A program made the translations under genes and the position numbers. From an uncultured Verrucomicrobiae bacterium (GTDB lineage Bacteria > Verrucomicrobiota > Verrucomicrobiia > Limisphaerales > J093), in contig CALFAV010000005.1 of the NCBI GenBank assembly GCA_937946835.1, positions 1-64,000 of the forward strand: 64,000 nt of DNA. The letters run 5' to 3'. Below are positions 1-60,490 of this stretch, one piece after another. Positions within the stretch are counted from its first letter, which is position 1. Every line of letters begins with the position of its first letter. Under the pieces are notes generated by a model that was not told the DNA's origin, searched no databases, and worked only from the letters and a program-made list of their open reading frames with translations.

Positions 1-1
1 C

Positions 2-199
2 CCGCCGGCGCCTGACCCGCAGCTTGAAGTTTTCCCGGCCCGGGTGCTTGAACCGGCGGTCGCGCGCGTGTCCGGTGCGCACCTCGAGCCACCGACGCAA
101 GGAGCCGGTCCGCCGTCCCTGCAGCCGAAGCCCGCCCCGGCGCCGACGTTGGTGTGGCTCAAATCTGGCCATCCGCCTGCCCACGCGGTAAGAGTCTGA
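2..199 (+). CDS. 3' end of an unidentified CDS (partial, proline-rich C-terminus)
   Basis: An open frame enters from the left edge and stops at TGA 197-199, giving 65 residues rich in Pro, Ala and Val that end in HPPAHAVRV. It lies on the same strand as the next gene, 16 bases upstream of it, which fits the tail of an operon partner. The composition resembles the proline-rich tail of the following protein. No domain is visible, and a chance open frame in GC-rich DNA cannot be excluded. Confidence 0.35.
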   Translation, partial: PPAPDPQLEVFPARVLEPAVARVSGAHLEPPTQGAGPPSLQPKPAPAPTLVWLKSGHPPAHAVRV

Positions 200-215
200 C
201 CCGGCATCGCTGCTG

Positions 216-2975
216 ATGCCGCAGCCAGACGTGGGCGAGACCGTCCAACCAAACTCCGGTCCTCCTGCGGGCGGAAAACGGCCTCCTCCGCCCGGGGGAG
301 GTGTTTTTTTGCTGGTGGTACTGTCCCTGGCCGCGGCCTGGGTCGCCGCCGGCTCGGTGGGCCTGATGGCGCATCCGCTGCGACGCATTGTCGCGGGACT
401 TTTGTTGGTGGGCGGGGTGCTGTCCGCGTTGCCGCCGGCCGCCGTCATGGGACCGGGCTGGCGAAAGCAGTGGGGCTGGCTCCTGGCCGCGGGGGCGCTG
501 CTGGCGGCGCCGTTTCCGGTCATCAACGTGCTGGCGGCCGGTCTGGTCCTGGGTGCGGCGGCGACCGCTGCGCAGTCCGGGGAAGGCCGGCGCGTGTTTG
601 GGGCGGGCGCGCAGGCGGTGCTGGTGTTCGCGTTGTACCTGTTCGCGGTGACGTTGGTGCCGTGGGGCTGGTGGGCCGCCGACCACCTGGCCCGGCTGCT
701 GGGCCGGGTCGTCAGTCTGGCCGGACCCTGGCCGTTGGAGGTCGGGCGCACGTATGCGGGGTTGGATTACCTGGTGCTCTCGACCACGTTTTGTGTCTTG
801 CTCGCCCGACAGTCCGGCCGGCGCGGATTCCGCTTCTGGAGCGCGCTGGTGCTGAGTGTGGGTTTGGTACACCTGGCGTACCTGTTCGCCGTGGCCGGTT
901 TCCCCCGCTGGCGGGAGTGGTTGCCCACCCTGGTCACGCCGCCCCGCCTCCCCGGGCTGGCGCCCACGACCAAGTCCCTCGCGGAGATTGTGCTCTGGCA
1001 ATTGCCGTGGCTGGGACTGGTGTTGCACCTGCCGCTGGTGGGCTGGTGGACCTGGCGGCTGGGCCGGCCGGGAATCAGCACGGAGGCAGGCTCACCCCCC
1101 GTCGCCAAACCGGCCGCCGGCCTTCCGCTTCTGCCGCGCTGGTCCTGGGTTGCCCTGCTCCTGGCCGTGGCGGTGCCGGGGGTGATGTTGCTCAACCTCC
1201 GGCCGCTGAGTCTCAAGGGCCGCAAAATTGTGGTGTACGAAAAGGGCTTTCTGAACTGGCTCAAGCCCCGGCACGGCGACTACGGCCGGCTCAGCGTGGG
1301 GATGTACGGGATGTGGCCCGCGTTTTGCGCCAGCTACGGCGCGCAGTGTGTGATTTCGCCCGATCTTGCAGAGCCGGACCTGGCCGGGGCGGATTTGCTG
1401 GTTCTGATCTTTCCGAACCGACCGTGGGAACCGGGCCAGTTGGAGCGCATCCAGCGCTTTGTTTCCGCCGGCGGCACCCTGCTGGTGCTGGGCGAGCACA
1501 CGGTGCGCGAAAAGGACGGCGGCAATCGGTTCAACGAAGTGCTCGGTCCCACCGCGATGCAGGTGGCCTTTGACTCGGCCATGTTTGCCGTGGGCGGCTG
1601 GTTGCACTCGTACCAGGCGCTGGCCCACCCGGCCGCCCTGGGCCTCCGGGATGACCGCAATCAGTTTGGCGTGGTCATCGGCGCCTCGGTTGAAGCCGGC
1701 TGGCCCGCGCGCCCGCTGCTGGTGGGACGCTGGGGCTGGGCCGATCCGGGCGATGTGACCAACGACGAAACCCGCGGCGGCTCGATGATGGGCAACCAGA
1801 AGTACGACGCCGGGGAGCGTCTGGGCGACGTGCTCTTGGCCGCCGAGCAACGCTGGGGCCGCGGCCGCGTGGTGGTCTTCGGCGACACGTCCGGCTTCAC
1901 CAACGGCATCCTCGTTGGTTCGCATCAGTACGTGGCGGCGCTGCTGGCCACGTTGTGCCAAAAGATCGAGTTTGGCGCCGGCCGGATGGTGGCCGCCCTG
2001 GCGGGGTGTCTGTTGCTGGCCGGGTGGGTTTGGCGTCAGCCCCGGCCCGGCCGGCTGCTGAGCGTCGCCCTCGTGTTCGGAGCCGCCACCTGGGGCGCGG
2101 CTGCCTGGTCGGCGGCCCGGGCCAATCTGGTCCCGGACGGCCGCGGCGCGCAGCCCAACAACCTGGCCTACCTGGACAGCACGCACGCGGAGCGGGTCAG
2201 CGGCGAGTCCTGGCGTCCCAACGGCCTGGGCGGGCTCCAGCTCACCCTGATGCGCAACGGGTACCTGGTGTTGAGCCTGCCAGAGTTCACCGCGCGGCGG
2301 CTGGAAGGGGCCGGATTGCTGGTCTGCGCCGCGCCGGGCCGTCCGTTCACCGCGCGCGAGCGGGCCGTGGCGCGCAGTTTTGTCGAGCGCGGGGGCATCC
2401 TCATCTTCACCGTGGGCTGGCCGGAAGCGGCCGCCAGCCGACGGCTGCTGGCGGAGCTGGGATTTTTTGTGGGCGGCCGCGGGGCGGCGGAGGGCCGGGG
2501 GCCGGAGCCGAAGCCGTTCGGGCACTTCAAGGCGCCGTACTACAACGGCGGGGATTACATGGCCTACGTGCGCTTCCACGCCGCCTGGGCGGTTGAGTCC
2601 TCCGACCCGAACGCCCAGCCGTTGGCTTACGGCCCCCGCGACCCGCTCACCGGGCGGGACCCGACCGTGATCCTGATGCGGCGCCTGGGTCGGGGCAAGG
2701 TGGTGGTGGTGGCCGACAGTGAATTTGCGACCAACCAGAACCTGGAAAACGAGGGCGGCCAGCCCTTCGAAGGCCTGCGGGAAAACGCGCATTTCTGGCG
2801 CTGGTTGCTCAGCTACCTCAACGACCAACCGGTGTGGATCCCGCCCCGGCCGGAGCCGGAAACGCCCGCCGCGCGGCCGGGGGCCGCGCCACCACCCGGC
2901 GAGCCGTCCCCGGGTACCCCACCCCCGGGCGCCGCTCCCGCCGAAGGCCCGCCACCGGAAGGAGACACGCCATGA
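216..2975 (+). CDS. Large membrane protein with two GATase1/DUF4350-like domains (paralogue 1)
   Basis: 919 residues. After a Pro/Gly-rich N-terminus there are about eight membrane segments (residues 28-310). A soluble alpha/beta domain follows around 335-590, with ADLLVLIFPNRPWEP and then a GGTLLVLGEHT strand-loop typical of DUF4350/class I glutamine-amidotransferase-like folds. A further membrane pair lies at about 588-632 and a second similar domain at 645-870 (GAGLLVCAAPGRPFTARE, ERGGILIF). The tail from 874 is Pro/Ala-rich. No amidotransferase catalytic Cys-His pair is evident, so it is probably a binding or structural fold. The stop overlaps the next start by four bases (ATGA), so the two proteins are likely made together. 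A weak resemblance of the N-terminal membrane part to exosortases, without the catalytic Cys, was noted. Function unknown, possibly envelope or cell-surface related. Confidence 0.75.
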   Translation: MPQPDVGETVQPNSGPPAGGKRPPPPGGGVFLLVVLSLAAAWVAAGSVGLMAHPLRRIVAGLLLVGGVLSALPPAAVMGPGWRKQWGWLLAAGALLAAPFPVINVLAAGLVLGAAATAAQSGEGRRVFGAGAQAVLVFALYLFAVTLVPWGWWAADHLARLLGRVVSLAGPWPLEVGRTYAGLDYLVLSTTFCVLLARQSGRRGFRFWSALVLSVGLVHLAYLFAVAGFPRWREWLPTLVTPPRLPGLAPTTKSLAEIVLWQLPWLGLVLHLPLVGWWTWRLGRPGISTEAGSPPVAKPAAGLPLLPRWSWVALLLAVAVPGVMLLNLRPLSLKGRKIVVYEKGFLNWLKPRHGDYGRLSVGMYGMWPAFCASYGAQCVISPDLAEPDLAGADLLVLIFPNRPWEPGQLERIQRFVSAGGTLLVLGEHTVREKDGGNRFNEVLGPTAMQVAFDSAMFAVGGWLHSYQALAHPAALGLRDDRNQFGVVIGASVEAGWPARPLLVGRWGWADPGDVTNDETRGGSMMGNQKYDAGERLGDVLLAAEQRWGRGRVVVFGDTSGFTNGILVGSHQYVAALLATLCQKIEFGAGRMVAALAGCLLLAGWVWRQPRPGRLLSVALVFGAATWGAAAWSAARANLVPDGRGAQPNNLAYLDSTHAERVSGESWRPNGLGGLQLTLMRNGYLVLSLPEFTARRLEGAGLLVCAAPGRPFTARERAVARSFVERGGILIFTVGWPEAAASRRLLAELGFFVGGRGAAEGRGPEPKPFGHFKAPYYNGGDYMAYVRFHAAWAVESSDPNAQPLAYGPRDPLTGRDPTVILMRRLGRGKVVVVADSEFATNQNLENEGGQPFEGLRENAHFWRWLLSYLNDQPVWIPPRPEPETPAARPGAAPPPGEPSPGTPPPGAAPAEGPPPEGDTP

Positions 2976-5914
2976 AACGACTCTGGCTGGGGTTGTTTCT
3001 GTTGGCGGCGTCCTGGCTCCCGGGCACCGGCTATTACCGGGCCGCGGATTGGGGCGCCTGGGGCCTGCTGGTCGCCGCGGGCCTGGCCTTGCTCTGCTTC
3101 TCACGCCTGGCCGGGCGATGGGGACCGGCCGGGCCGGAGATTTTCGGGCCGCAAGGGATTGTCCCTTGGACCGACCACCGCGGGCTGATGCTGGGGTTGT
3201 TGGCCCCGGCGGTGTGGGTGTTCCCCTGGCCGTATCGGTTGGCGCCCGGGTTGATGGCGCTCGCCGTATTGCTGGCGTGGCGACGGGCGCTGGTGAGTGG
3301 GGCTGGCCTTGAAGTCGGGGACCGGTCGGACCGGTCTTTGACCGGCGGTGTCCGACTGGCGGGAGTTGAAGCGGAAGGCCGGCCCGCGCCAGGGGCGGCA
3401 GAAGCGCGCTCGTTTCGTCTGGCCCTGGCCGAAGGTCTGGCGCTGGGGGGACTGGTCCTGGGGATTCAGGCGCTGGCCCTGCTGGTGTACCGCACGTTCA
3501 CCTCGTACTCCCATGAACTGCCCGCCCCGGTGGCGCAGGTGTTGGGGTTGGTCCTGCGCTGGGCGGGTATCGAGACCGGTGTGGAGGTCGGCGGGGAACA
3601 TCGGGCCCTGATGTTGCCGACCATGCGGCAGGTGCACGCGCTGGGAGCGACCTGGGAACTGCTGGTGGACCCGGGGTTGTGGTGTTTCCTGGTCACCGGC
3701 CTGGTGCTGGTGGCCGGTTGGGCTTTGCAGGGTGGGCGGGCGGTTCGCGGGGTGGCGACGCCGGTTCCCGTGTCGAGCCGAAAGACCCGTCGCAATCGCC
3801 CCCCGCCGCCTTCTCGCGCGCCGTTTTGGCGCGCGCTGGGGCGGCAGCCGTGGGTGCGGTTGGGGCTGGCCTGGGCCGGCGCGGCGCTGGTGTGGCTGCC
3901 GCTGCGGGTGTTGCTGCTGGCCGGGGTGATGGTGCACCGGGCGTTGTTGACCGAGTACGACGCGCCGCTGGACCTGATGCGGCCGTTTTGGAATGGCTGG
4001 GTGTTGCTGGGGCTGGGCTTGCCGCTGGTCTGGCTGCAGGCGCGCTGGCTGGGCGGTACGTGGAGGACGCTGGAGGTGAAGCACGGCCCCACCGTCCCCG
4101 TGCCACCGCTACCAACTGCGAAGGATGATTCCCTGACCGGCTCCGGGACGACGGTTGCCCTCCGTCCGGCGGGGATCGGGAAAGGGCTGGCGCCGGTGTG
4201 GGGAGGTGTGGTGCTGGTGACGCTGGGGGTGGTGTGGGACCCGGTGGGCACCCGCCAGGCGGGGCGCGTGGCCGTGGACGAGTACCATTCGAAGTGGGAG
4301 CCGACCGACCGGCCGTTCGACACCGAGTGGTACGGGCACTTGTCCGGGTACAACTACGCCTGCATTTACGATTATTGCTCGCGGTTTTTTCAGATGTCGC
4401 GGCTGACCGCGCCGCTGGACGACCGGACGCTGGCCGAGCTGGACGTGCTGGTGCTCAAGGTGCCCACCGCGCCCTACACGGCGGCGGAGATCGAGGCGGT
4501 GGTCCGGTTCGTCAAGCGGGGCGGGGGGCTGCTGTTGATCGGCGAGCACACCGACGTGTTCGGCACCGGCTACCATCTCAACGCCCTCGCCCGGCGTTTC
4601 GGGTTCGAGTACCGCTACGACTGCCTCTTCGGCATTGACTCGGTTTTCGAGCAGTACTACGTGCCGCCGTTTGTCCCGCACCCGGTGGTTCGGTATGTGC
4701 GGGGGATGGATTTTGCGACCTCGTGTTCCCTGCGCCCCTTCCAGCCCTGGCGCGGGCGCAGCGTCATCACCTCGACCGGGCTGAAAAACGCCCTGGCGGA
4801 TTACCACGTGAGCAATTTCTACCCCCAGGCGGTGGACCGGGCCGAGATGCGCTACGGGGCCTTTGTACAGTTGTGGGCCGTGCGGCAGGGGCGCGGTCGG
4901 GTGCTGGCGTTCACCGACTCCACGATCTTTTCGAACTTCTGCACCTTCGAGCCGGGCAAGGCGGAGTTGATGCTCGGGATGTTGGAGTGGCTCAATCACC
5001 GGGACCGCTGGGGCCAGGTGCGCCCGTGGCTGCTGCTCGCGGGGGGGCTGTTGGTCGGGGCGGGGCTGGGACGGCGGCGAAACGCTGGGGTGCGCCGGGG
5101 CCTGATCGTGGCGGGCAGCGCCGGCTTGTGCGCACTCACCCTCGCGGCCGTGCGCGAGATCCAGCGCCGCCAGTTCCCGCCGCCCGCGCCGCTGCGCCCG
5201 TGGGTGCAGGTGACGGTGGACCGCACCGCCTGCGAGGGGCCGCTGTCCAAGAATGGGTTCATCGAGGGAAAGAGCAATGGCTTCGGCATCTTCGAGCGGT
5301 GGATTTTGCGCCTGGGCTATTTCACCCGGCGGGAAACGGGGCTGTCCGCGCTGGCCGGCGACCTGGTGGTCTTTATGTATCCGACCCGCGCGGTGAGTGG
5401 GTCCTACGTGAAAGCCCTGGAACGGTACGTGGCCGACGGGGGCCGGGTACTGGTCTTGGACTCGGCGGAGAACACCAATTCGACCGCGGCGGCGTTGCTC
5501 GCACCGTTCGGGCTGGCGTTGGGAGCCCACCCGCAACCGGATGGCACGTTGAACCCCGGGGCCGGGCTTCCCGCTATTCCCGTCCAGGCGGCCCGACAAG
5601 TTACGGGGGGAACCGCCTTCAGTCATTTGCATGGGCGGCCGGTCGCTGCGGCGGTGCGGCACGGCCGGGGCACGGTCACGGTCCTGGGCATCGGCGCGCG
5701 GTTTACGGACGTGCGCATGGGTGTGACCGGCGATGTGGAGCCGGACGCGGCGTTGCGGCAGGTGTACGATTACCAGTTCGGGCTGCTGCGCCGGATCATC
5801 GAGGGGCCCTGGCCGCCGGCGACGGGTGATGAAGCGGGCGCCGCCTCGTTGGCCCCCGACGATGCTCTGGTTCGCTCAAAACTGGAGGGCGGGGCTGGCA
5901 GGTCGGCACCGTGA
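2972..5914 (+). CDS. Large membrane protein with two GATase1/DUF4350-like domains (paralogue 2)
   Basis: 980 residues from ATG 2972. This start has GGAG about eight bases upstream, overlaps the previous stop (ATGA) and opens with a hydrophobic segment, MKRLWLGLFLLAASWLPG. The architecture repeats the upstream protein. A multi-pass N-terminal membrane region (1-430) precedes a soluble domain near 436-675 with LDVLVLKVPTAPYTAAE and GGGLLLIGEHTDVFG. A membrane pair follows near 683-730 and a second domain near 743-960 (GDLVVFMYPTRAV, DGGRVLVLDSAENTN). The two genes are therefore paralogues by tandem duplication, and each contains an internally repeated domain. The motif WLPLRVLLLAGVMVHRA recalls the Arg-containing helix of exosortases, but this is weak. 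Function unknown; the pairing suggests a heteromeric membrane complex. Confidence 0.75.
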   Translation: MKRLWLGLFLLAASWLPGTGYYRAADWGAWGLLVAAGLALLCFSRLAGRWGPAGPEIFGPQGIVPWTDHRGLMLGLLAPAVWVFPWPYRLAPGLMALAVLLAWRRALVSGAGLEVGDRSDRSLTGGVRLAGVEAEGRPAPGAAEARSFRLALAEGLALGGLVLGIQALALLVYRTFTSYSHELPAPVAQVLGLVLRWAGIETGVEVGGEHRALMLPTMRQVHALGATWELLVDPGLWCFLVTGLVLVAGWALQGGRAVRGVATPVPVSSRKTRRNRPPPPSRAPFWRALGRQPWVRLGLAWAGAALVWLPLRVLLLAGVMVHRALLTEYDAPLDLMRPFWNGWVLLGLGLPLVWLQARWLGGTWRTLEVKHGPTVPVPPLPTAKDDSLTGSGTTVALRPAGIGKGLAPVWGGVVLVTLGVVWDPVGTRQAGRVAVDEYHSKWEPTDRPFDTEWYGHLSGYNYACIYDYCSRFFQMSRLTAPLDDRTLAELDVLVLKVPTAPYTAAEIEAVVRFVKRGGGLLLIGEHTDVFGTGYHLNALARRFGFEYRYDCLFGIDSVFEQYYVPPFVPHPVVRYVRGMDFATSCSLRPFQPWRGRSVITSTGLKNALADYHVSNFYPQAVDRAEMRYGAFVQLWAVRQGRGRVLAFTDSTIFSNFCTFEPGKAELMLGMLEWLNHRDRWGQVRPWLLLAGGLLVGAGLGRRRNAGVRRGLIVAGSAGLCALTLAAVREIQRRQFPPPAPLRPWVQVTVDRTACEGPLSKNGFIEGKSNGFGIFERWILRLGYFTRRETGLSALAGDLVVFMYPTRAVSGSYVKALERYVADGGRVLVLDSAENTNSTAAALLAPFGLALGAHPQPDGTLNPGAGLPAIPVQAARQVTGGTAFSHLHGRPVAAAVRHGRGTVTVLGIGARFTDVRMGVTGDVEPDAALRQVYDYQFGLLRRIIEGPWPPATGDEAGAASLAPDDALVRSKLEGGAGRSAP

Positions 5915-49455: not shown

Positions 49456-52245
49456 ATGAACTCCCCGTTGAGCGCGGTTCGACTCGTCGTGGTGCTCGGC
49501 CTGGGCGTCGCGGCCCCGGGCCGCGCGGACACCCACCTCACCTGGGAGGCGCGCTTTGCCCGGCCGCCCGCCGATGCGCGCATCCTCAAGATCATCCACG
49601 GGTGGCCGGACGCGCCCGAGCAGCAGGACCAGTGGATTCGCCGGCTGAGCGCCCAGGGTTTTGGTGGCGTGGTGTGCAACGTTTCCTTCCAGGACTACCT
49701 CGAAAGCGAGTCCAAGTGGGCCGCCTTCACCCGCGCCGTCCAAGCGGCCAAAGACGCCGGCTGGACGCTCTGGCTGTACGACGAGCACGGGTACCCATCG
49801 GGCAACGCCGGGGGGCTGGTCTTGCGCGGGCATCCCGAGTGGGAGGCGCGCGGCCTGTTGGTGACGGAGGCGGAAACCACCGGCGGGCCGGTCACGCTGG
49901 AACTGCCCCCCGGCCCGCCAGTGCTGGTCGCCGCCTACCCGGTGCGCGAGGACGGGATGGAATTGGCGGCGCGGGTGGAACTGTCCCCGGCGGTCCGGGA
50001 AGGCCGGTTGACCTGGACGGCCCCCGCCGGGCGCTGGCGGGTGCTGGCCATCACCGAAGACCGGCTCTTCGAGGGCACCCACGCCGCGGGCAACCTGCAC
50101 GCAAAACTTCCCTACCCGAACCTGCTGCTGCCCGAGCCGACGGCCCGGTTCATCGAATTGACCTACGGCAGCTATGCGCGCCATCTGGGGACCAACCTCG
50201 GTCGCTTCTTCGCAGCCACCTTCACCGATGAACCCTCGCTGATGAGCCTGTTCCTCGAACCCATGCCCTACCGGCCGTTGCCCTGGGCGCCCCATCTGCC
50301 GGCCGAGTTCCAACGCCGGCGCGGTTACGCGCTCGACCTTGCGCACTTGCCGATGCTGGTGGGGGATACCCGTCCCGGCCCGGCGAAACTGCGCCACGAT
50401 TTCTGGCTCACGGTGGGCGAGTTGGTGGCCGAAAATTATTTCGGGCAAATCCAGACCCACACGCGCCGGCTCGGCGTGGCCTCCGGTGGACACCTCCTGG
50501 CCGAGGAAAACCTTGTCCACCACGTCCCGCTGTACGGGGACTTTTTCCGCTGCCTTCGCCGGATGGATGCCCCGGGCATGGATTGCCTGACCAGCGTGCC
50601 GGCCGAAGTGCCCTGGCCCGTGGCGCGGTTGGTCAGCAGCGCGGCGGCACTGGAGGGCCGCCCCCTGGTGATGAGCGAAACCTCCGACCACGCCCAGGTC
50701 TGGCGCGCGCCCGGCGACCGACGCCCCCGGCGGGGGGTCACCGAAGGCGAAATCCGCGGCACCTGCAACCGCCTGTTGGTGGCCGGCGTGAACACGATCA
50801 CCAGCTACTACAGCTTCACCGACCTCGACGACGAGGCGCTGCGCCGGCTCAACGCGTGGGTGGGCCGCGGCGCCGCGGCGTTGCGCGGGGGCCACCAGGT
50901 GGCGGACCTGGCGGTGGTGTATCCGGTGGAAAGCCTCTGGGTGCGGTTCGTGCCCTCGCGCCACTGGACCCGGGAGGCCGCTGCGGCCGCGCGCCTGGAC
51001 CACCTGTACCGCAGCGCGGTCGAAGCGCTGTTCGCCGCGCGGCGGGAGTTCACGGTGGTGGACAGCCGCACGCTGGCCGAAGCCGCCGTGGAGAGCGGCG
51101 CGTTGGCGCACGGTCCGCTGCGCTGGCGGGTGGTGATCCTGCCGGGGGTGGACACCCTGCCCCTGGCGGCGTGGGAGAACCTGGCGCGGTTTGTGCGCCG
51201 GGGCGGCGTGGTGATCGCGCTGGGCGCCCTGCCCACCCACAGTGAACGCGAGTTCCCCTCCGCCCGTGTCCGGGCCCGGGCCGGGGAGATGTTTGGCACT
51301 GTCGAGGCGTCCGCGCGCGAGCCCCGGGTGCATTCCAACGCGGCGGGCGGGGCCGGCATTTTCCTGCCGGCGGGCGCGGAGGGGTTGCTCCCGTTGGTCC
51401 TGGACGGGGTGTTGGCGCCGGAATTAAAGGTCGCCGGCGGGGCCGCCGGAGGGCGGTCGCCGTTGCGGGCCACGCACCGGCGAATCGAGGGCCGCGAGAT
51501 TTATTTCGTCATCAACGACAGTGCCCGGCCATGGGCCGGTCGGGTGGAGTTTGCCGCGGAGGGCGAGGGGGAACGGTGGAGTCTTGCCACGGGCCGGTGC
51601 GAGGACCGGTTTCGGGGCGGCGCCGGGGAATTGAGCCTGGAGCCCTGGGACGCGGCGGTGTTTCGTTTTACCACGCCCCGGCCGCCAGCGCGCCGCCCTC
51701 TCGGCGCTGGGGCGCTCCCGGGCCTCGGGTTTCGCACCCTGGCCCCCGCCGCGCCCACGCTGCTGCGGGGGGAGTTTGTGCGCGCCGAACTGCGCCCCGC
51801 CGCCGGCCCGACCACCAACGCGCCGGCCTGGGAAGTGGCCGCGGCACTGACCCGCGGCCGGGTGGACACCTGGGCGTTCGCCCAGTTCCACTTTTCCCCG
51901 CCGCTGGACCTGAGCGCTGCCGATTGCCTGGCCCTCGAGACCTGGGTCCCGGAAGGTCAGACCACCGCGAACCAACTGCTGGTCCTCTTGCGCGAAGAAG
52001 GCGGGGGCGATTTCTTCGCCGAAACCGGCCGCTCCCTGGCCGGGCCGGGTTGGGAACGAAGTTTCCTTCCCCTCGAGCGTTTCCAACTCGCCGGCTGGTC
52101 CCGGGACCCGGACGGCGAGTTGGATCGGACGCGGATCAGCGACCTTCGCGTCGGCTGGGGAGGCTACCTCGGCACCGAGGGCGAACAGGTGCGGTTCCGC
52201 CTCGCGCCGCCCCAGATCGGCGCACGGATGCCCGGGAAACCTTAA
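49456..52245 (+). CDS. Exported glycoside hydrolase related to GH106 (alpha-L-rhamnosidase-like)
   Basis: 929 residues with a signal peptide (MNSPLSAVRLVVVLGLGVAA, cut near 24). The motif LWLYDEHGYPSGNAGG at about 105-120 matches the recalled GH106 signature. It is followed by FTDEPSLMSLFLEPMPY and a long catalytic module with MSETSDHAQVWR. A beta-rich C-terminal section (from about 700) may bind carbohydrate. It probably removes rhamnose or a related sugar from a plant or algal polysaccharide. It is divergent from the GH-A hydrolase (162-base gap), making a small degradation locus with the isomerase/oxidoreductase operon. Confidence 0.75.
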   Translation: MNSPLSAVRLVVVLGLGVAAPGRADTHLTWEARFARPPADARILKIIHGWPDAPEQQDQWIRRLSAQGFGGVVCNVSFQDYLESESKWAAFTRAVQAAKDAGWTLWLYDEHGYPSGNAGGLVLRGHPEWEARGLLVTEAETTGGPVTLELPPGPPVLVAAYPVREDGMELAARVELSPAVREGRLTWTAPAGRWRVLAITEDRLFEGTHAAGNLHAKLPYPNLLLPEPTARFIELTYGSYARHLGTNLGRFFAATFTDEPSLMSLFLEPMPYRPLPWAPHLPAEFQRRRGYALDLAHLPMLVGDTRPGPAKLRHDFWLTVGELVAENYFGQIQTHTRRLGVASGGHLLAEENLVHHVPLYGDFFRCLRRMDAPGMDCLTSVPAEVPWPVARLVSSAAALEGRPLVMSETSDHAQVWRAPGDRRPRRGVTEGEIRGTCNRLLVAGVNTITSYYSFTDLDDEALRRLNAWVGRGAAALRGGHQVADLAVVYPVESLWVRFVPSRHWTREAAAAARLDHLYRSAVEALFAARREFTVVDSRTLAEAAVESGALAHGPLRWRVVILPGVDTLPLAAWENLARFVRRGGVVIALGALPTHSEREFPSARVRARAGEMFGTVEASAREPRVHSNAAGGAGIFLPAGAEGLLPLVLDGVLAPELKVAGGAAGGRSPLRATHRRIEGREIYFVINDSARPWAGRVEFAAEGEGERWSLATGRCEDRFRGGAGELSLEPWDAAVFRFTTPRPPARRPLGAGALPGLGFRTLAPAAPTLLRGEFVRAELRPAAGPTTNAPAWEVAAALTRGRVDTWAFAQFHFSPPLDLSAADCLALETWVPEGQTTANQLLVLLREEGGGDFFAETGRSLAGPGWERSFLPLERFQLAGWSRDPDGELDRTRISDLRVGWGGYLGTEGEQVRFRLAPPQIGARMPGKP

Positions 52246-52522
52246 ACCCCCGCCGCGGGCTTCCGGGGCGCACCGAGGCACCTGCGCGCGGGGAACCCAC
52301 CCGCTCAACAGGGGATGAAGTCGCCCTCGCTTGGTTGAGCCGCCCCCGGCCCCGGACGAGTCCGGCGCCGGCCGGCCTGGAGGGCTGAGGTGGCCGATTA
52401 ATTTAGGCTGCTCATTTTTAATTTCAGTTTTCTCTTGACCGGACTCTCTGGCCGGCGCAGAAACGCCGTCGTACTCGGCCAGAAGAAGCCTGGTTGTCGG
52501 TACCTGGGGAGGCTTCTCAGAT
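52246..52522. other. Upstream region of the cyclase-oxygenase operon
   Basis: 277 bases without a gene. An AT-rich patch (52395-52440, with TTAATTTAGGCT and TTTTTAATTTCAG) stands out against the GC-rich background and probably holds the operon's promoter or operator, although no well-spaced -35/-10 pair was found. TTGACC occurs at 52435. GGGGAGG at 52506-52512 is a good ribosome-binding site for ATG 52523. Confidence 0.4.
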
Positions 52523-55500
52523 ATGCGTTGCCCTCATTGCCAGTCGGAATCTCCGGAACGAGCGCTGTTTTGCGTGGCGTGTGGCGGCGCGCTCTCCCGG
52601 GCATGCCCGGCTTGTGGGTGCGCCAATCCGTCCACCGCCCGTTTTTGCGCCGGCTGCGGGCGCCGGCTCGAAACGCCCCCCACCGCCTCGCCAAACACCC
52701 CGCCCGCGGCGAGCGCCGGTGCCCTCACCGAGGCCCCCGAACGCCGGCAATTGACGGTGCTGTTTGCCGACCTGATGGAATCCACCGCGTTGTCCGAGCG
52801 CCTGGACCCGGAAGTGATGCGGCGGGTGATGCGGGCCTACCAGGCAATTTGTGCCGAAGAGACCCGACACCACGGCGGGCACCTGGCCCAGTACCTGGGC
52901 GATGGCGTGGTGATTTTTTTCGGGTATCCCGTGGCGCACGAGGACGGGGCCCGCCGGGCCGTGCGCACGGCCCTGGGCATCTTGTCCCGCCTGGAGAGCC
53001 TCAACCGGACTTTTCAGACCGAGCTGGGCCTGGAACTGGGCGTGCGCCTGGGGTTGCACACCGGCACCGTGGTGGTCGAACACCTGGTGGAGGAGGGCCT
53101 GCAAACGCCCCTGGCCACGGGCGAACCGCCGAACATCGCCGCCCGCGTCCAAGCCCTCGCCGGGCGCAACAGCGCCGTGCTCACCGCGGACACCTACCGG
53201 CTGGTCGCACCGTTTGTCCGTTGCGAGGAGCTGGGACTGCACCCCGTCAAGGGCCTGACCCGCCCGGTGCGCCTGTATCGGCTGCTGGGGGACTCGGACA
53301 CCGCCACCCGACTGGAGGCCGCGGCCGCCGGCGGGCTGACCCCTCTGGTGGGACGGCAAACCGAGCTGGCCTGGCTTGGGGACACCTGGGCGGACACCGC
53401 CGCCGGCGGTTCCCGCTGGGTGTTGTTGTCCGGCGAGCCGGGGATCGGCAAATCCCGACTGGTGCAAACCCTGATCCAACGCGTGGCCTCCGCCGACGCG
53501 CAGGTGCTGGTCTGCCTTTGTTCCCCCCACTGGCAGAACAGCGCCTTTGCCCCCATCTCGGATTTGATTGCCCGGCGGCTGGACCTGAACAGTGCAGATC
53601 CCCCGGCCGCGCGCCTGGCCCGGTTGGAAGCGCGCCTGTCCGAAGACCGCCTGCCCGCGGCGGAAACGCTTCCCCTGCTGGCGCCGCTGTTCGACCTGCC
53701 GGTGCCGGCGACCGATCCGAGCCGGGACCTCACCCCGGCCCAGCGCCGGCAGCGCACCCTGGTGGCCCTGATGAACTGGCTCTTCGGCAAGGCGCAACGC
53801 CGGCCGGTGTTGCTGGTGGTCGAGGACCTGCATTGGGCCGACCCTTCGACGCTCGAACTGCTGGGGTTGATCCTTCAAACCCACGGCACCCACCGCTTGC
53901 TGACCTTGCTCACCGCGCGCCCCGAGTTTTCCCCCTCCTGGCCCCTGGGGGATGCGGGCCGCGTGTGGACCCTGAGCCGACTGAGCCAGCCGGAAGTGGT
54001 CCGGCTGGTGGCCGAAGTGGCCGGGGGACACGATTTGCCCAAAGTCGCGCTGGAGCAGATCACCGAACGGGCCGACGGCATCCCCCTGTTCATCGAGGAA
54101 CTGACCAAGATGTTTCTGGAAAGCGGGCCCGCGGCCGAAGCGCCGGCTCCCGCCGCCCGCCGGAGCGCCCCGGAGCGGTGGGCCATTCCCGCCACGATCC
54201 AGGATTCCCTCATGGCCCGGGTGGATCGCCTGGGCACGGCCAAGCGCCTGGCCCAGTGGGGCGCGGTGCTGGGACGGGAGTTCCGGCAGGACGTGCTCGT
54301 GGCCGTGGCCGGCCCGGCCTTTTCGGAGCTCGAAGCTGACCTGGGGCGGCTCCTGGCCGCCGGGTTGCTGGCCCGGGTGGGCACCCAAACCCCGGCCACC
54401 TATGTCTTCAAGCACGCGCTGATCCAGGATGCGGCCTATCAGTCGTTGCTCCAGGCCACGCGGCGTGACCATCACCGGCAGATCGGTCAGGTGTTGGAAA
54501 AACAGTTTCCGGAACTGGCGGCCGGCCGGCCGGAACTGCTGGCCCACCACTTCACCGAAGGAGGCGACCCCCGCGCCGCGCTTACCTGGTGGTACCGCGC
54601 GGGCGAAGCAGCCCGGGCCCGCTCGGCCAACCAGGAGGCGGCGACCCATTTCCGCCGCGGGCTGGAGCTGCTGGAAGGGCTGCCGGACGCCGCCGAGCTG
54701 GCGCCGCTGGAGCTGCAATTCCGGCTGGCGCTGGGCAGCCTGTTGATGGCCCTCCAGGGATACGCCGCCCCCGAAGTCGGCCGCCTGTTTGGCCGGGCGC
54801 GGGAGTTGTGTCAGGTCCTGGGCGCGCAGCCGCAACTGAGCCCCGCCATCAGCGGGCTGTGGTCCTACAGCATTGTGCGGTGCGAATTCGCCGAGTCCAC
54901 CGCCCTGGCGGCCCAAATGATGACCCTGGCGCGGGACACCGGCTCCCCCGATCTGGAACTGGAGGCCGAGGCCGGCACCGGCATCAATCTTTTCTGGGCC
55001 CACGCCCGGTTTGCGGAGGCCCGCATCCACCTGGAACGGGCCGTGGCGCTTTACGACGTCGAGCGGCACCGGACCCATGCGCTGATCTATGGCCAGGACC
55101 CCGGCGTCATGGCCGCGGCGCATCTGGTCTGGGTGCTGTGGATTCAGGGCGAGACCGAAGCGGGCGTGGCCCAGGTGGCCCGCCTGCGTCAGTTGGCCCG
55201 GTCCCGCGGCCACGCCTACAGCCTCGGCTACGCCTTTGCCTGGGAGAACACCCTCTGGTTTCTGGCCCGCCGGGTTCGGGCCGCCCTGCAAGCCGCGGCG
55301 GAAGCCATCCGGTACTGTGCCGAGCAGGGGTTTCCCCTCTGGCAATGTGTGGCCGCCTATGTCCAGGCCTGGGCGCGGGTGGCCACCGGCCAGGGCGAGG
55401 GCGCCGTCGAGGAAATCCGCCAGGCCCTCGCCACCTGGCGGGCCACCGGCGCCACGGTCTCCCAGGCCTATCAACTGAGTGTGCTGGCCGAGGTGCACCG

Positions 55501-55879
55501 CCTCCAGGGCGATCTGACCGCCAGCCGGCAAACCATCGAGGAGGCCCTGGCCCTGACCCGCACCTGCGGGGACCTTTGGTACCGGCCGGAACTGCTGCGC
55601 CTGCGGGGCGAACTCCTGCTGGCCGGCGGCGAAACCGACCTCGCCGAGGCGTCCCTGCGCGAAGGCCACGACCTGGCGCGGGCCACCGGCGCGCGCATGT
55701 GGGAGTTGCGCGCCGCCCTGGGGCTGGCCCGGCTGGCGCAGGCGCGGGGCCGGCCCGAGCCGGCCCGCCCGCTGGTGGAAGAGGCCCGCGCCGGGTTTCC
55801 CGTCGGAACCTCCGAACCGGAACTCGAGCTGGCGCGGCGTTTTCTGGACAACTCCGCAGCGCTTCCCGTCTGCGCATGA
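52523..55879 (+). CDS. Class III nucleotide cyclase fused to AAA ATPase and TPR-like repeats
   Basis: 1118 residues. Two zinc ribbons open the protein (CPHC 3-6 with CVAC 17-20; CPACGC 28-33 with CAGC 42-45). A Pro/Ala linker precedes a class III cyclase domain (about 75-265), with metal-binding D83 in LFADLMEST and D127 in YLGDGVVIFFG. Next is a large P-loop ATPase, Walker A GEPGIGKS at 304-311 and Walker B VLLVVEDLHWAD near 430-440, as in STAND/MalT-like regulators. TPR-like helices run from about 670 to the end. It probably makes or senses a cyclic nucleotide. Its stop overlaps the oxygenase start (ATGA), an unusual partnership. Confidence 0.92.
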   Translation: MRCPHCQSESPERALFCVACGGALSRACPACGCANPSTARFCAGCGRRLETPPTASPNTPPAASAGALTEAPERRQLTVLFADLMESTALSERLDPEVMRRVMRAYQAICAEETRHHGGHLAQYLGDGVVIFFGYPVAHEDGARRAVRTALGILSRLESLNRTFQTELGLELGVRLGLHTGTVVVEHLVEEGLQTPLATGEPPNIAARVQALAGRNSAVLTADTYRLVAPFVRCEELGLHPVKGLTRPVRLYRLLGDSDTATRLEAAAAGGLTPLVGRQTELAWLGDTWADTAAGGSRWVLLSGEPGIGKSRLVQTLIQRVASADAQVLVCLCSPHWQNSAFAPISDLIARRLDLNSADPPAARLARLEARLSEDRLPAAETLPLLAPLFDLPVPATDPSRDLTPAQRRQRTLVALMNWLFGKAQRRPVLLVVEDLHWADPSTLELLGLILQTHGTHRLLTLLTARPEFSPSWPLGDAGRVWTLSRLSQPEVVRLVAEVAGGHDLPKVALEQITERADGIPLFIEELTKMFLESGPAAEAPAPAARRSAPERWAIPATIQDSLMARVDRLGTAKRLAQWGAVLGREFRQDVLVAVAGPAFSELEADLGRLLAAGLLARVGTQTPATYVFKHALIQDAAYQSLLQATRRDHHRQIGQVLEKQFPELAAGRPELLAHHFTEGGDPRAALTWWYRAGEAARARSANQEAATHFRRGLELLEGLPDAAELAPLELQFRLALGSLLMALQGYAAPEVGRLFGRARELCQVLGAQPQLSPAISGLWSYSIVRCEFAESTALAAQMMTLARDTGSPDLELEAEAGTGINLFWAHARFAEARIHLERAVALYDVERHRTHALIYGQDPGVMAAAHLVWVLWIQGETEAGVAQVARLRQLARSRGHAYSLGYAFAWENTLWFLARRVRAALQAAAEAIRYCAEQGFPLWQCVAAYVQAWARVATGQGEGAVEEIRQALATWRATGATVSQAYQLSVLAEVHRLQGDLTASRQTIEEALALTRTCGDLWYRPELLRLRGELLLAGGETDLAEASLREGHDLARATGARMWELRAALGLARLAQARGRPEPARPLVEEARAGFPVGTSEPELELARRFLDNSAALPVCA

Positions 55880-57261
55880 ACCTGTCCCCCCTCCGCACCC
55901 CGCTTCGCCTGCTCGGCGCGTTGAGCCGCGCCGCCCTGGGCCGCCTCACCGCCGCGTGCGGTTGCACGCCTCATCGCCGGGCCGAGCGCTTTACTCCGGA
56001 CCCCGCACTGGAGGCTCTGCTGGAGCAAATGCGCTTCGAGGCGGACCCGCTGGCCGATGACACGGTCCGGCGCCTTTTCGCCAGCGGCGCGGGCATGGAC
56101 CGGGTCAACGAGCTGCTTGCCCGGCTCATTCACCAGGCGCCGCCCCCCGAGGCCCTGCGGGACGACGCGCAGGATGAGGCGGCGCGGGCCGCGCTCGAGC
56201 CCTACCTGGCGCACTGCCAGACCCTGCCGCCCTGGGCGGACCGGGCCGTGATTGGCCGCGCGGGCGCGCTGTTTGCCGAGCACGGGATGCTGGCCTTCTC
56301 GGTGCTGGGTTGCGCCAGCCTGCCCGTGGGCTACGCCGCCCCCGAGGCGGCGCGCGTGCTGGGATTCACCCAGCAACTGACCGAGCACGCCCAACGCCGC
56401 CTGGCCGAGACGGCACTGTTTCTGATTGACGTGATGTCGCGGGGCGGCCTGGAACCCGGGGGGCGCGGCCTGCAGGACATCGCGCGGGTGCGCCTGATGC
56501 ACGCGGCCATCCGGCACCTGCTGCTGCAACCGGCCCCCGGGCCGCTGGGCGAGGGCCGCCGGGACTTCGCCCGGGTGCTGGCCGAGGCGTCCTGGGACGT
56601 GCGCGCGCACGGCCAGCCCATTCATCAGGTGGTGATGTCCGCGACCATCCTGTGCTTTTCCTTCGTGGCCCTGCGCAGTGCGCGCCGGATGGGCCTTCAC
56701 CCGCCGCCGGAAGCCGAACACGCCTACCTGCACGCGTGGAACGTGGTGGGGTGGCTGATGGGCGTGCGGGACGAGTTGCTGGTGCCGCGGCCCGAGACCT
56801 ACGCGGGGGCGGAGAAACTCTTCAACCACATCTGGCATCGCTTCCGGGCCCGCGCGCCCTACGCCGAGGGGATTCAGCTCACCGCGGCGTTGCTGCGGTT
56901 TCTGGAAGACCCGCTGCACGATCTGCCCCCGCCCCTGCCGCGGCTGCCCCGTCTGGTCATGCGCGACCTGATCGGGCCGGATCTTACGCGCATTCTGGGG
57001 GTGAAGCTGGGGTTTTGGGACGAGGTGCTGCTGGGACTGGCGGTATGGGGAATCCGCGAGCTGGATCACCTGGGTGACGTGGTTTACGAGCGACTGCCGC
57101 AGTCGCGTCTGGCGGCGGAGTTTCTGTTCCGCCGGCTGGTCCGGGCGCTGGCGGGCGCACCCCGCGGCGGGGCGCGCCCGCCGTTTCAAATTCCCGATCA
57201 CCTGGCCGAGCGCTGGCGCGTGCGGCCGCCCTCGCCCCGCGCGGAACCTGTCGGCCCCTGA
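55876..57261 (+). CDS. Lcp/MpaB-like heme oxygenase (DUF2236 family, latex-clearing-protein type)
   Basis: 461 residues from ATG 55876. Lcp proteins oxidatively cleave poly(cis-1,4-isoprene); MpaB cleaves a prenyl side chain. The Lcp heme-site pattern is intact: R175-L-A-E-T179, then exactly 30 residues to H209 in VRLMHAAIRH, with R206 and R213 flanking. This spacing is the same as the recalled R164/T168/H198 of the Streptomyces enzyme, offset by 11. The family block AYLHAWNVVGWLMGVRDELL follows. No clear Sec or Tat signal is seen, unlike secreted Lcp. It overlaps the cyclase gene by four bases and precedes a methyltransferase by six. Substrate unknown; an isoprenoid or other long hydrophobic chain is likely. 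Confidence 0.82.
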   Translation: MNLSPLRTPLRLLGALSRAALGRLTAACGCTPHRRAERFTPDPALEALLEQMRFEADPLADDTVRRLFASGAGMDRVNELLARLIHQAPPPEALRDDAQDEAARAALEPYLAHCQTLPPWADRAVIGRAGALFAEHGMLAFSVLGCASLPVGYAAPEAARVLGFTQQLTEHAQRRLAETALFLIDVMSRGGLEPGGRGLQDIARVRLMHAAIRHLLLQPAPGPLGEGRRDFARVLAEASWDVRAHGQPIHQVVMSATILCFSFVALRSARRMGLHPPPEAEHAYLHAWNVVGWLMGVRDELLVPRPETYAGAEKLFNHIWHRFRARAPYAEGIQLTAALLRFLEDPLHDLPPPLPRLPRLVMRDLIGPDLTRILGVKLGFWDEVLLGLAVWGIRELDHLGDVVYERLPQSRLAAEFLFRRLVRALAGAPRGGARPPFQIPDHLAERWRVRPPSPRAEPVGP

Positions 57262-57267
57262 CTGCGC

Positions 57268-58134
57268 ATGGCCGCCAACTCGATCAGCCCCGCCGCGATT
57301 GTCCGGTACTACGACGTGCTCGAGCCGGACTATCGCTACATGTGGAATCTGGGGCGGAACGTGGCGATGCACTTCGGGTACTGGGACGCCGCCACGCGGA
57401 GCCTGCCCGGGGCGCTGGAGCGGGAAAACGCCGTGCTGGCCGAATTGGCCCGGGTGCACCGCGGCACGCGCGTGCTCGACGCCGGCTGCGGCATCGGCGG
57501 CAGCGCCATTTACCTGGCGCGGCACCACGGCTGCCGGGTGACCGGCGTCACGCTCAGCGCCAGACAGGTGCGGACCGCGCAGCGCCTGGCCCGCCGGGCC
57601 GGGGTGGCCGGGGGGACCGAGTTTTTGTGCCGGGATTTTCAGCAGACCGGATTTCCGGACGGGGCGTTCGACGTGGTGTGGGCCCTCGAGAGCGTGTGCC
57701 ACGCGCCGGACAAGGCGCGGTTGAGCCGCGAGTTTTTCCGGGTGTTGGCGCCGGGCGGCCGCCTGGTGGTGGCGGATGGGTTTGCCGCACGCGCGCACTT
57801 CGCGCCGGCGGACCGGGCGTTGATGGACCGGTGGCTGCGGGGTTGGTGTGTCGAGTCGCTGGCCACGCTGGAGGAGTTCACCCGGGCCCTGGGCGCGGCC
57901 GGTTTTGTCGGCGTCCAAGTCCGGGATGCCACCCCGAACGTGTTGCCCTCCTCGCGGCACCTGTACCGGTGGTCCCGGCCGCTGCTCGGGCTGGCCGCGG
58001 TGTTGCGGTGGTGTGGTCCGAACCTGCGCACCCGCGCGCTGAACATCGTGGCCGCACACGGCCAGTACCTGGCGTTGACCCGCGGTCTGTGGCGGTACGG
58101 CTTGATCGTGGCCTCCAAACTTCCCCCCGAATGA
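57268..58134 (+). CDS. SAM-dependent methyltransferase, sterol/tocopherol type
   Basis: 288 residues. Class I fold with SAM motif VLDAGCGIGGSAIYLA (about 69-84), VTGVTLSARQV and FDVVWALESVCHAPDKARL. The N-terminal YYDVLEPDY and MHFGYWDAATRS match the group containing Erg6/sterol C-24 and tocopherol methyltransferases, which methylate isoprenoid lipids. It sits between the Lcp-like oxygenase and a FadL-type channel, so it may act on the same hydrophobic substrate. Its stop overlaps the next start by four bases. Confidence 0.85.
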   Translation: MAANSISPAAIVRYYDVLEPDYRYMWNLGRNVAMHFGYWDAATRSLPGALERENAVLAELARVHRGTRVLDAGCGIGGSAIYLARHHGCRVTGVTLSARQVRTAQRLARRAGVAGGTEFLCRDFQQTGFPDGAFDVVWALESVCHAPDKARLSREFFRVLAPGGRLVVADGFAARAHFAPADRALMDRWLRGWCVESLATLEEFTRALGAAGFVGVQVRDATPNVLPSSRHLYRWSRPLLGLAAVLRWCGPNLRTRALNIVAAHGQYLALTRGLWRYGLIVASKLPPE

Positions 58135-59396
58135 ACCTTTTCTCACTCCCCGGTTGGCCCGCCGCCGTCCGCCGCAAGACCGGTTCGGCCTTGCGAAGCC
58201 CTCGGCGTTTTCCCGCCCGGTCGCTGCTCTGCCTGGCCGCGGTGGGCGGGCTCGCCGCCGCGCCGGTTTGGGGGGTGGCCTTTCGGGTCCCGAACCAGGA
58301 CGCCCGGGCCGTCGCGCGCGGCAACGCCTTCGCAGCCACCGCGGACAACCCCGCGGCCGTTTACTACAACCCGGCCGGCCTGGCGTTCCTGGAGGGCACG
58401 CAATTTCGGGCCAGCGCGTACCCGATTTGGCTCAAGGTGGACCATGAAGCCGCGGGGGGCGGGCGGTTCAGCACGCGCGACCAGTTGCAGGGCGTGGCGC
58501 AGGTGTATTTCACCAGCACCGCCGCCGGCGGCAGCCTGGCCGGGGGCGTGGGCCTGTACACGCCCTATGGCCTGGGCACGCTCTGGCCGGATGACGCGCC
58601 GTTTCGCGCGCTGGGTACCAAGGCGGAGTTGATGTACCTGGCCGTGAACCCCGTGGTCGCCTGGCGGCCCCGGCCCGCCCTGGCCGTGGCCGTGGGCCCC
58701 AGCGTGGACTGGGGGCGCGCCACGCTCCGGCAGGGCATCGGCACACGACCGGAGGACCAGTTCAATTTCACCGGGACCGACCTCAGCCTGGCGGCCACCG
58801 CGGGGTTCCTGTGGCGCCCCCATGCGCGGCACGCGTTGGGGGTGAGCTGGCGCAGTCCCGGGGAGATGACCTTTGAGGGCACGGCGGAAACCCGGGTGGG
58901 CGGCCTGCGGTTCGAGCAGGACGCCACCTACCGGCTGAACCTGCCCCAACACCTCATCGTGGGTTGGTCCTTCCGCCCCACGCCCGCCTGGAACCTCGAG
59001 GTGAACGTGGACTGGACGGACTGGCACGCCGTGGACACCGCCACGCTGGGGTTGCCGGGTGGCAAGACCGAGGTGCCGTTCCACTGGGAGTCCGGCTTCA
59101 TGTACGAGTTTGGCCTGACGCACACCTTCGCCTCCGGCACGGCCCTGAGCGTGGGTTACTGGTACGGCGAGGAGACCGTGCCCGACGCGCGTTACCAACC
59201 CATTGTGCCCGACGTGGCCCTGCACGCATTTTCCGCCGGCCTGGCCTGGCGTTGGGGCGCCTGGAACCTGGAGGCGGTGTACCAACTGGGCGTGGGCCCC
59301 ACCCGCACGGTGCGCGGCAGCCCGGGCGGATTGGCCGACGGTGACTTCACCTACCTCAGCCACGCCCTGAGCCTGGCCGCCGGGCGGAAGTTCTAA
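58131..59396 (+). CDS. FadL/TodX-family outer-membrane hydrophobic-substrate channel
   Basis: 421 residues from ATG 58131. An unusually long basic N-terminus precedes a signal segment (RSLLCLAAVGGLAAAPVWG, about 30-49). The mature protein starts with FRVPNQDARAVARGNAFAAT and the FadL hatch motif NPAAVYYNPAGLAFLEG. The rest alternates beta strands with aromatic ends and finishes in F (LSLAAGRKF), as for outer-membrane barrels. It likely imports long-chain hydrophobic compounds. Last gene of the operon; it converges with a PIG-L gene 38 bases away. Confidence 0.9.
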   Translation: MNLFSLPGWPAAVRRKTGSALRSPRRFPARSLLCLAAVGGLAAAPVWGVAFRVPNQDARAVARGNAFAATADNPAAVYYNPAGLAFLEGTQFRASAYPIWLKVDHEAAGGGRFSTRDQLQGVAQVYFTSTAAGGSLAGGVGLYTPYGLGTLWPDDAPFRALGTKAELMYLAVNPVVAWRPRPALAVAVGPSVDWGRATLRQGIGTRPEDQFNFTGTDLSLAATAGFLWRPHARHALGVSWRSPGEMTFEGTAETRVGGLRFEQDATYRLNLPQHLIVGWSFRPTPAWNLEVNVDWTDWHAVDTATLGLPGGKTEVPFHWESGFMYEFGLTHTFASGTALSVGYWYGEETVPDARYQPIVPDVALHAFSAGLAWRWGAWNLEAVYQLGVGPTRTVRGSPGGLADGDFTYLSHALSLAAGRKF

Positions 59397-59434: not shown

Positions 59435-60292
59435 TTACTGAAACAGGGTCGCCGCCGGCTGGCCGACCGGGAGCATCCGTCCGCCCGGGTAGAAGCGCTC
59501 GAACTGACCGCCGCGCCACCGGCGAACGCGGTACAGCGTGGCAAAGGTAAAGGCCGGTGCCGCGCCGCCCTGCCCGCCCACCAGTTCCCCCCCGCGGCGC
59601 ACGTTGTCCATCATCCAGGCCGGCAGGAGCAGGTGGTACGGGTTGCGGCGCACCTCGCCCACATGGAAGGAGCAGGCGGCCACGAGGTCGGCCAGGTCCT
59701 CCGGGCCGGCTTCGACGGCCGCGTTGGGATCGTCGCACTGGCCCCAGTACTCGGTCTCGACGGTGACACACTCCAGGCTGGTTCCCAGCCCGCGCAGGGC
59801 ATCCACCACCAGCCAGTGCACCCCCACGTGCGTGCTGTTCCAGTCCTGGTCGTGCGGGAAACAGATGACCTGCGGACGCTCCACCTGGAGCAGCTTGGCA
59901 ATCACGCGTACCTTGTCGGTCCAGCCCACCGGGTCCTGCTCGCGCGCGGCCAGATTCACCCGCTCCAGCCCGCGCGGCGCGGTCTGCTGCACCTCGAACC
60001 CCAGAAACGCACACGCGTTTTTCAACTCGGCCAGCCGGGCCTCCTGTCGGCCGGGGTCGCTGCCCTGGGTGACCGCCACGTTGATCACCCGGTACCCGGA
60101 TTCGCGCATCAACCGCAGCGCCAGCAACCCCACGATGCACTCATCGTCCGGGTGCGGGGAAAACAGCAGCACCTTGGGCGCATCGGAACCGGGCTTGGGG
60201 CGGGGCCGGAGGGGCAGGTCGCCCAGCGGCAGATGGGTTCCCAGCCCGGCCAGACTGGCGTAGCTTTGCACGTATAAGCGATAGGGATGCAT
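59435..60292 (-). CDS. PIG-L/LmbE-family deacetylase
   Basis: 285 residues from ATG 60292 (MHPYRLYVQSYASLAGLG); a GTG five codons upstream is an alternative. Zinc-binding motif SPHPDDECI at about 45-53 and the second metal-site segment FPHDQDWNSTHVGVHW near 150 are present. Family members remove acetyl groups from N-acetyl-glucosamine conjugates, chitooligosaccharides, or thiol-cofactor precursors; the substrate here is unknown. No signal peptide. Convergent with the FadL operon. Confidence 0.9.
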   Translation of the reverse strand: MHPYRLYVQSYASLAGLGTHLPLGDLPLRPRPKPGSDAPKVLLFSPHPDDECIVGLLALRLMRESGYRVINVAVTQGSDPGRQEARLAELKNACAFLGFEVQQTAPRGLERVNLAAREQDPVGWTDKVRVIAKLLQVERPQVICFPHDQDWNSTHVGVHWLVVDALRGLGTSLECVTVETEYWGQCDDPNAAVEAGPEDLADLVAACSFHVGEVRRNPYHLLLPAWMMDNVRRGGELVGGQGGAAPAFTFATLYRVRRWRGGQFERFYPGGRMLPVGQPAATLFQ

Positions 60293-60490
60293 GACGGGCG
60301 TTTCCACACCCCCAACAAAGATTCATGGCTGCCATACCGGCAAGCACAATTTGCTCCGGGAAACGGCGCTCGGACATCGGCACCAGACTCCCCGGCCCTG
60401 CACAGAAGGCGCGCGCGCCCACCGCGGGCGATCGCGGGCGGCCCCCCAGGTTCGGTCCCGGAGCGCCGGCACGCCCCCCGGGGTTCCGGC

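Follow-up and report, generated by a model that had tools for sequence, protein, structure and literature searches.

A predicted four-gene operon combining a nucleotide cyclase/STAND ATPase, an Lcp-like heme oxygenase, a methyltransferase and a FadL channel in an uncultured Verrucomicrobiae bacterium

Organization of the locus

The DNA analysed comes from an uncultured Verrucomicrobiae bacterium (J093; assembly GCA_937946835.1, contig CALFAV010000005.1), of which positions 1 to 64,000, a stretch of 64,000 nucleotides, are referred to below as the window. Direct reading of the ORFs (open reading frames) showed that four genes on the + strand, which we designate A, B, C and D, fill positions 52523–59396. 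Gene A (52523–55879) encodes an 1118-residue protein with zinc ribbon, class III cyclase, STAND ATPase and TPR regions, gene B (55876–57261) a 461-residue member of the Lcp/MpaB (DUF2236) heme-oxygenase family, gene C (57268–58134) a 288-residue class I SAM-dependent methyltransferase and gene D (58131–59396) a 421-residue outer-membrane channel of the FadL/TodX type. The A/B and C/D junctions are ATGA overlaps (at 55876 and 58131 respectively) and B and C are separated by a 6-base gap (57262–57267), so that the coordinates and junctions given in a preliminary description of this DNA are borne out. Its four family assignments also agree with our Pfam results, except that the sequence of C is not specifically of the isoprenoid type, small-molecule methyltransferases being its nearest relatives.

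Gene A is preceded by a 277-base gap (52246–52522, + strand), which carries a GGGGAGG Shine–Dalgarno-like stretch and no CRP consensus site, and the preceding gene, on the same strand, ends at 52245; downstream of D lies a convergent PIG-L gene on the − strand (59435–60307). With this upstream gap and convergent neighbour the four-gene unit is well bounded. GC content by codon position is of the coding type in all four genes, and their tight spacing suggests that A, B, C and D are co-transcribed. A promoter and terminator scan of the locus gave nothing consensus-like above shuffled sequences. A recent foreign insertion is unsupported by composition, as the GC content of the operon matches that of its surroundings.

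Gene A encodes a class III cyclase/STAND protein

By Pfam, A combines DZR, Guanylate_cyc, AAA_16 and TPR_MalT domains, i.e. a double zinc ribbon with four CxxC motifs (residues 3–45), a class III nucleotide cyclase domain (residues 73–252), an AAA_16/STAND ATPase (residues 274–460) with an intact P-loop, GEPGIGKS, at residue 304, and a C-terminal TPR region. Alignment of the cyclase domain, in which we recognized the motifs FADLMEST, GDGVV and NIAAR, with CyaB and 2w01 showed that both metal-binding aspartates and the transition-state asparagine and arginine are kept, and that a glutamine occupies the adenine-specifying (purine-recognizing) lysine position of CyaB. This substitution makes the cyclase activity, or the nucleotide used, unsure; it bears on the nucleotide made and not on class III membership. 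The best curated family for A in NCBIfam is TIGR03903 (TOMM_kin_cyc), at a score of 609.9 bits that falls below the cut-off of 705.75.

Gene B encodes an Lcp-like oxygenase

B matches PF09995 (MPAB_Lcp_cat) with 67.3 bits against a Pfam cut-off of 23, and a phmmer search of solved structures with its sequence returned a single match, the latex-clearing protein Lcp (5o1m, E value 1e-13). Structure prediction, a check that the preliminary description had proposed, gave an AF2 model (mean pLDDT 81.6) with an Lcp-like fold: by VIA-align it matches Lcp with a Z score of 30.1 over 348 residues and the t-anethole oxygenase 8s1j with a Z score of 18.4. Arg175, Thr179 and His209 of B are invariant in an alignment of 28 diverse homologs, and they align with three LcpK30 residues, Arg164, Thr168 and His198, the last being the proximal ligand of the heme (PMC5522427). 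At the position of the distal Lys167 of Lcp, B has Glu178, which is nearly invariant among the 28 homologs; as only 59% of Lcps carry the distal lysine (PMC5522427), this residue is not strictly Lcp-defining. The column of Glu148, the catalytic or tunnel base of Lcp, holds Ala158 in B, with Glu157 adjoining, and glycine in most other homologs. B is predicted to bind heme b, the cofactor with which related enzymes of PF09995 split C=C bonds (PMC12724181). Simple inspection of hydropathy showed no N-terminus resembling a signal peptide, and B is therefore probably intracellular.

Genes C and D encode a methyltransferase and a FadL channel

C matches the Pfam families Methyltransf_11 and Methyltransf_25, and CMAS and UbiE more weakly, with the motif DAGCGIG at residue 71; its nearest solved relatives are MitM and the 3bus methyltransferase. 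The NCBIfam model for geranyl-diphosphate methyltransferase (GPPMT) scored 81 bits on C, far under its cut-off, so that an isoprenoid substrate, although possible, is not indicated by the sequence alone.

D matches PF03349 (Toluene_X/FadL) with 122.8 bits against a Pfam cut-off of 29.7 and has an NPAA motif at residue 73. Its signal-peptide-like hydrophobic stretch begins only at about residue 32, which makes a TTG start at codon 21 possible and the start of D uncertain. Homologs of D were present in 39 of the 58 genomes searched, its own genome being counted, and in the order they often adjoin two-component or SDR-type genes, these neighbours being named by sequence reading. In a phylogenetic tree D of the window lies outside the FadL clade of the genus and family; this disfavours D as the FadL of the genus, with weak support at the node of D itself. 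Several FadL homologs of the order lie amid histidine kinases and response regulators (L134 and L142, also L133 and L135), and the clusters of L134 and L142 include a FabF-like ketosynthase, possibly marking a conserved lipid-sensing cluster. In a relative (G051; L148, positions 1–4520) the FadL gene and an A-like cyclase/STAND gene are neighbours in convergent orientation.

The quartet is confined to one lineage among the genomes searched

Within the phylum, 446 genome searches gave no ortholog-like match to B outside the window; homologs amounted to a distant protein from the order (G016) and a single match that was marginal and partial. B is absent from all three genomes of the same genus and from the other family members searched, and its vertical inheritance is unsupported, since among the relatives searched only G016 has a homolog. 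We also scanned one genome per species across 84,980 species with two peptide patterns, where identity to B reached at most 38% among the best 80 of 250 relatives, and added further B loci from Acidobacteriota, Myxococcota and Actinomycetota. In other phyla about 155 neighbourhoods of B were covered, none of which has C or D beside B, and among the genomes and loci searched the quartet is thus particular to this lineage. The preliminary description had made its reading depend on co-conservation of the four genes, and in this it failed, the quartet occurring in no other genome searched.

Cyclase and STAND genes adjoin B homologs in other phyla

In Myxococcota, Acidobacteriota and Actinomycetota, B homologs have cyclase/STAND or kinase/STAND genes as neighbours. 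A-like proteins occupied 10 of 271 positions adjacent to B compared with 4 of 1128 positions at a distance of at least three genes (odds 10.8, p 3e-5), counts that are inflated by kinship of the genomes; with the window removed, the enrichment had a p value of 1e-4. Among the four counted as distant, L020 is truly adjacent, with B ending at 2608 and the cyclase starting at 2624. On the same strand, the cyclase precedes B in the myxobacterial loci L277, L286, L287 and L319 and follows it in the acidobacterial L020, and two Nonomuraea-type genomes have a crp–B–cyclase/STAND trio (L007, 7240–12502; L292, 4282–9543). Kinase-STAND proteins stand at the place of the cyclase in the acidobacterial loci L011 and L211, and in L207 the gene directly next to B encodes a kinase. 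In a further locus (L204, 6026–7801) a fusion of Fer2, class III cyclase and FAD/NAD oxidoreductase, encoded on the opposite strand, adjoins a B homolog.

These pairings look parallel rather than inherited as one operon, because A is much nearer to kinase-cyclase-STAND proteins, with 596 bits to that of L065, than to other B-linked cyclases, and because B of the window forms an isolated branch of the B tree (computed without L020), apart from the other cyclase-paired lineages. A single ancestral A–B operon is unsupported by that tree, from which L020 was left out. Control of the oxygenase by the cyclase/ATPase, as the preliminary description had supposed, gains from the recurrence of a link between signalling protein and oxygenase in other groups; the four-gene device of which it was to be part is without such independent support.

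The four myxobacterial loci with the cyclase before B each contain an exact TGTGA-N6-TCACA between the two genes, about 100 bases before B (at about 7258 in L277, 6288 in L286, 5738 in L287 and 5932 in L319). Sites scoring at least 9/10 numbered 14 in the 2.09 Mb of the first locus set, three of them in these cyclase–B gaps, and no CRP consensus was found upstream of B in any other locus scanned, including the cyclase-less relatives L023, L282 and L288. The B proteins of L277, L286 and L287 are close kin in the tree; the B genes of all four loci fall within a single related group, and the loci are not independent events. The CRP scan found no consensus site in the window, the genome of which encodes four cNMP-binding proteins.

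Substrate class of the B family

Although oxygenases of PF09995 are widespread, activity assays exist for few of them, and the known substrates are mainly rubber, nitrile rubber, anethole and a mycophenolic acid precursor. In five myxobacteria a B homolog forms the C-terminal part, and squalene-hopene cyclase (SHC) the N-terminal part, of proteins of ~1000 residues (PF13249 and PF13243 followed by PF09995; L272, 4796–7876; L273, 4763–7780; L274, 6632–9601; L275, 6456–9470; L276, 6611–9622). On a Streptomyces plasmid, two polyprenyl synthetase genes are followed by a B homolog, and the host genome of the window has one squalene-hopene cyclase gene and two squalene/phytoene-synthase-type genes. 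Taken together, these associations point towards isoprenoids or triterpenoids as substrates of the B family, the SHC-fused proteins being a branch of their own, separate from B of the window. A PF09995 protein of another architecture, from Fibrisoma limi (L050, 4935–9962), joins a caspase (Peptidase_C14), a GDSL lipase, MpaB/Lcp and DUF5995 in one chain.

The isoprenoid-like chemistry that the preliminary description proposed for B thus finds support in the Lcp fold, the heme residues, the SHC fusions and the polyprenyl synthetase neighbours. Import and cleavage of a polymer finds only partial support, since B, unlike the rubber-degrading Lcp, has no evident export signal.

Interpretation of the operon

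The explanation we prefer, tentatively and with somewhat less than even confidence, is that a heme oxygenase inside the cell acts on an isoprenoid-like lipid under the control of a signal, and that a methyltransferase and a FadL channel were recruited to it in one lineage. A recurrent two-part module of A and B would be the core of this lineage-specific operon. A, as a signal-transducing nucleotide cyclase/STAND ATPase, would control the production or activity of B, and B, as an intracellular heme-b oxygenase, would most probably oxidize or cleave a hydrophobic, isoprenoid-like molecule at a C=C bond, this molecule being either made by the cell or taken up. C might methylate the substrate or product of B, and D might move a hydrophobic substrate in or a product out. 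The cyclic-nucleotide output of A, the substrate class, and what C and D do and in which order, are points that we infer.

A looser arrangement, in which A controls B or just precedes it while C and D are unrelated and serve no single pathway, seems to us somewhat unlikely. It would account for C and D standing beside B in no other locus, and D, whose homologs in the order often adjoin two-component or SDR genes and which itself falls outside the genus and family clade, suggests separate histories of the four genes; against this, the two ATGA overlaps and the 6-base gap speak for translational coupling across the quartet, the composition of the operon is that of its region, and B, C and D would all fit a hydrophobic small molecule. 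The same genes could instead serve to tailor and export a specialized metabolite, with B and C modifying a terpenoid, or a related compound, made by the cell and D letting the product out. Relatives of B that are fused to SHC or lie beside polyprenyl synthetase genes, and the nearness of C to 3bus and to MitM, a tailoring methyltransferase, agree with such a role, which we nevertheless consider distinctly unlikely, as the operon has no terpene synthase or prenyltransferase and FadL channels are known chiefly as importers.

A device that takes up a polyisoprenoid from the environment and cleaves it oxidatively, as envisaged in the preliminary description, appears highly improbable. The Lcp fold of B and the FadL channel speak for it, but a polymer that needs cutting outside the cell would be out of reach of an intracellular enzyme, and B has no evident export signal; moreover, the tunnel base Glu148 of Lcp is aligned with Ala158, although the adjacent Glu157 might take its place. 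As for anti-phage signalling, with A as a Pycsar-like cyclase and the other proteins as effectors, we give it hardly any credence: the PADLOC PycC matches to the cyclase domain of A are weak (64 bits) and reflect the class III cyclase domain held in common, and B, C and D include no effector-like partner.

Beyond the signal-controlled oxygenase that we prefer for this locus, a wider and rather unlikely proposal would make Lcp/MpaB oxygenases in several phyla the output of a cyclic-nucleotide circuit dedicated to them, running from a gene-linked sAC-like cyclase/STAND sensor through cAMP and CRP to an oxygenase acting on squalene- or hopanoid-like lipids, with the operon of the window as a version extended by the methyltransferase and FadL channel. 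The novelty lies in the A–B pairing and its control, and no new protein family is involved; in the literature searched we recognized no link of PF09995 oxygenases with adenylate cyclases or squalene-hopene cyclase. The pairing suggests that a little-known oxygenase family is under signal control, and the SHC fusions and the cyclase/CRP-site pairing provide testable leads to the substrates (triterpenes) and control (cAMP) of PF09995 enzymes.

Comparison with known systems

A covers positions 268–1265 of the 1267 of the TIGR03903 profile, i.e. the cyclase-STAND-TPR part of the TOMM kinase/cyclase fusions, but it has no kinase domain, its score is under the cut-off and no TOMM genes were recognized in the operon. 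In sAC-like and mycobacterial cyclase-AAA-TPR proteins, e.g. Rv0386, a class III cyclase is likewise followed by AAA/STAND and TPR regions; A differs from these in having one cyclase domain, an extra zinc ribbon and an oxygenase in the same operon. B resembles the rubber oxygenase LcpK30 in its predicted fold and in the equivalents of His198, Arg164 and Thr168, although the identity is ~21%, Glu178 replaces the distal Lys167, Ala158 is aligned to Glu148, no secretion signal is evident and a cyclase is encoded in its operon. With the MpaB family and the alkene-cleaving heme oxygenases (8s1j, Nro1), to which identity is 13% and compared with which its N- and C-terminal helices are longer and Lcp-like, B shares the PF09995-type core fold and, probably, a b-type heme and C=C bond cleavage.
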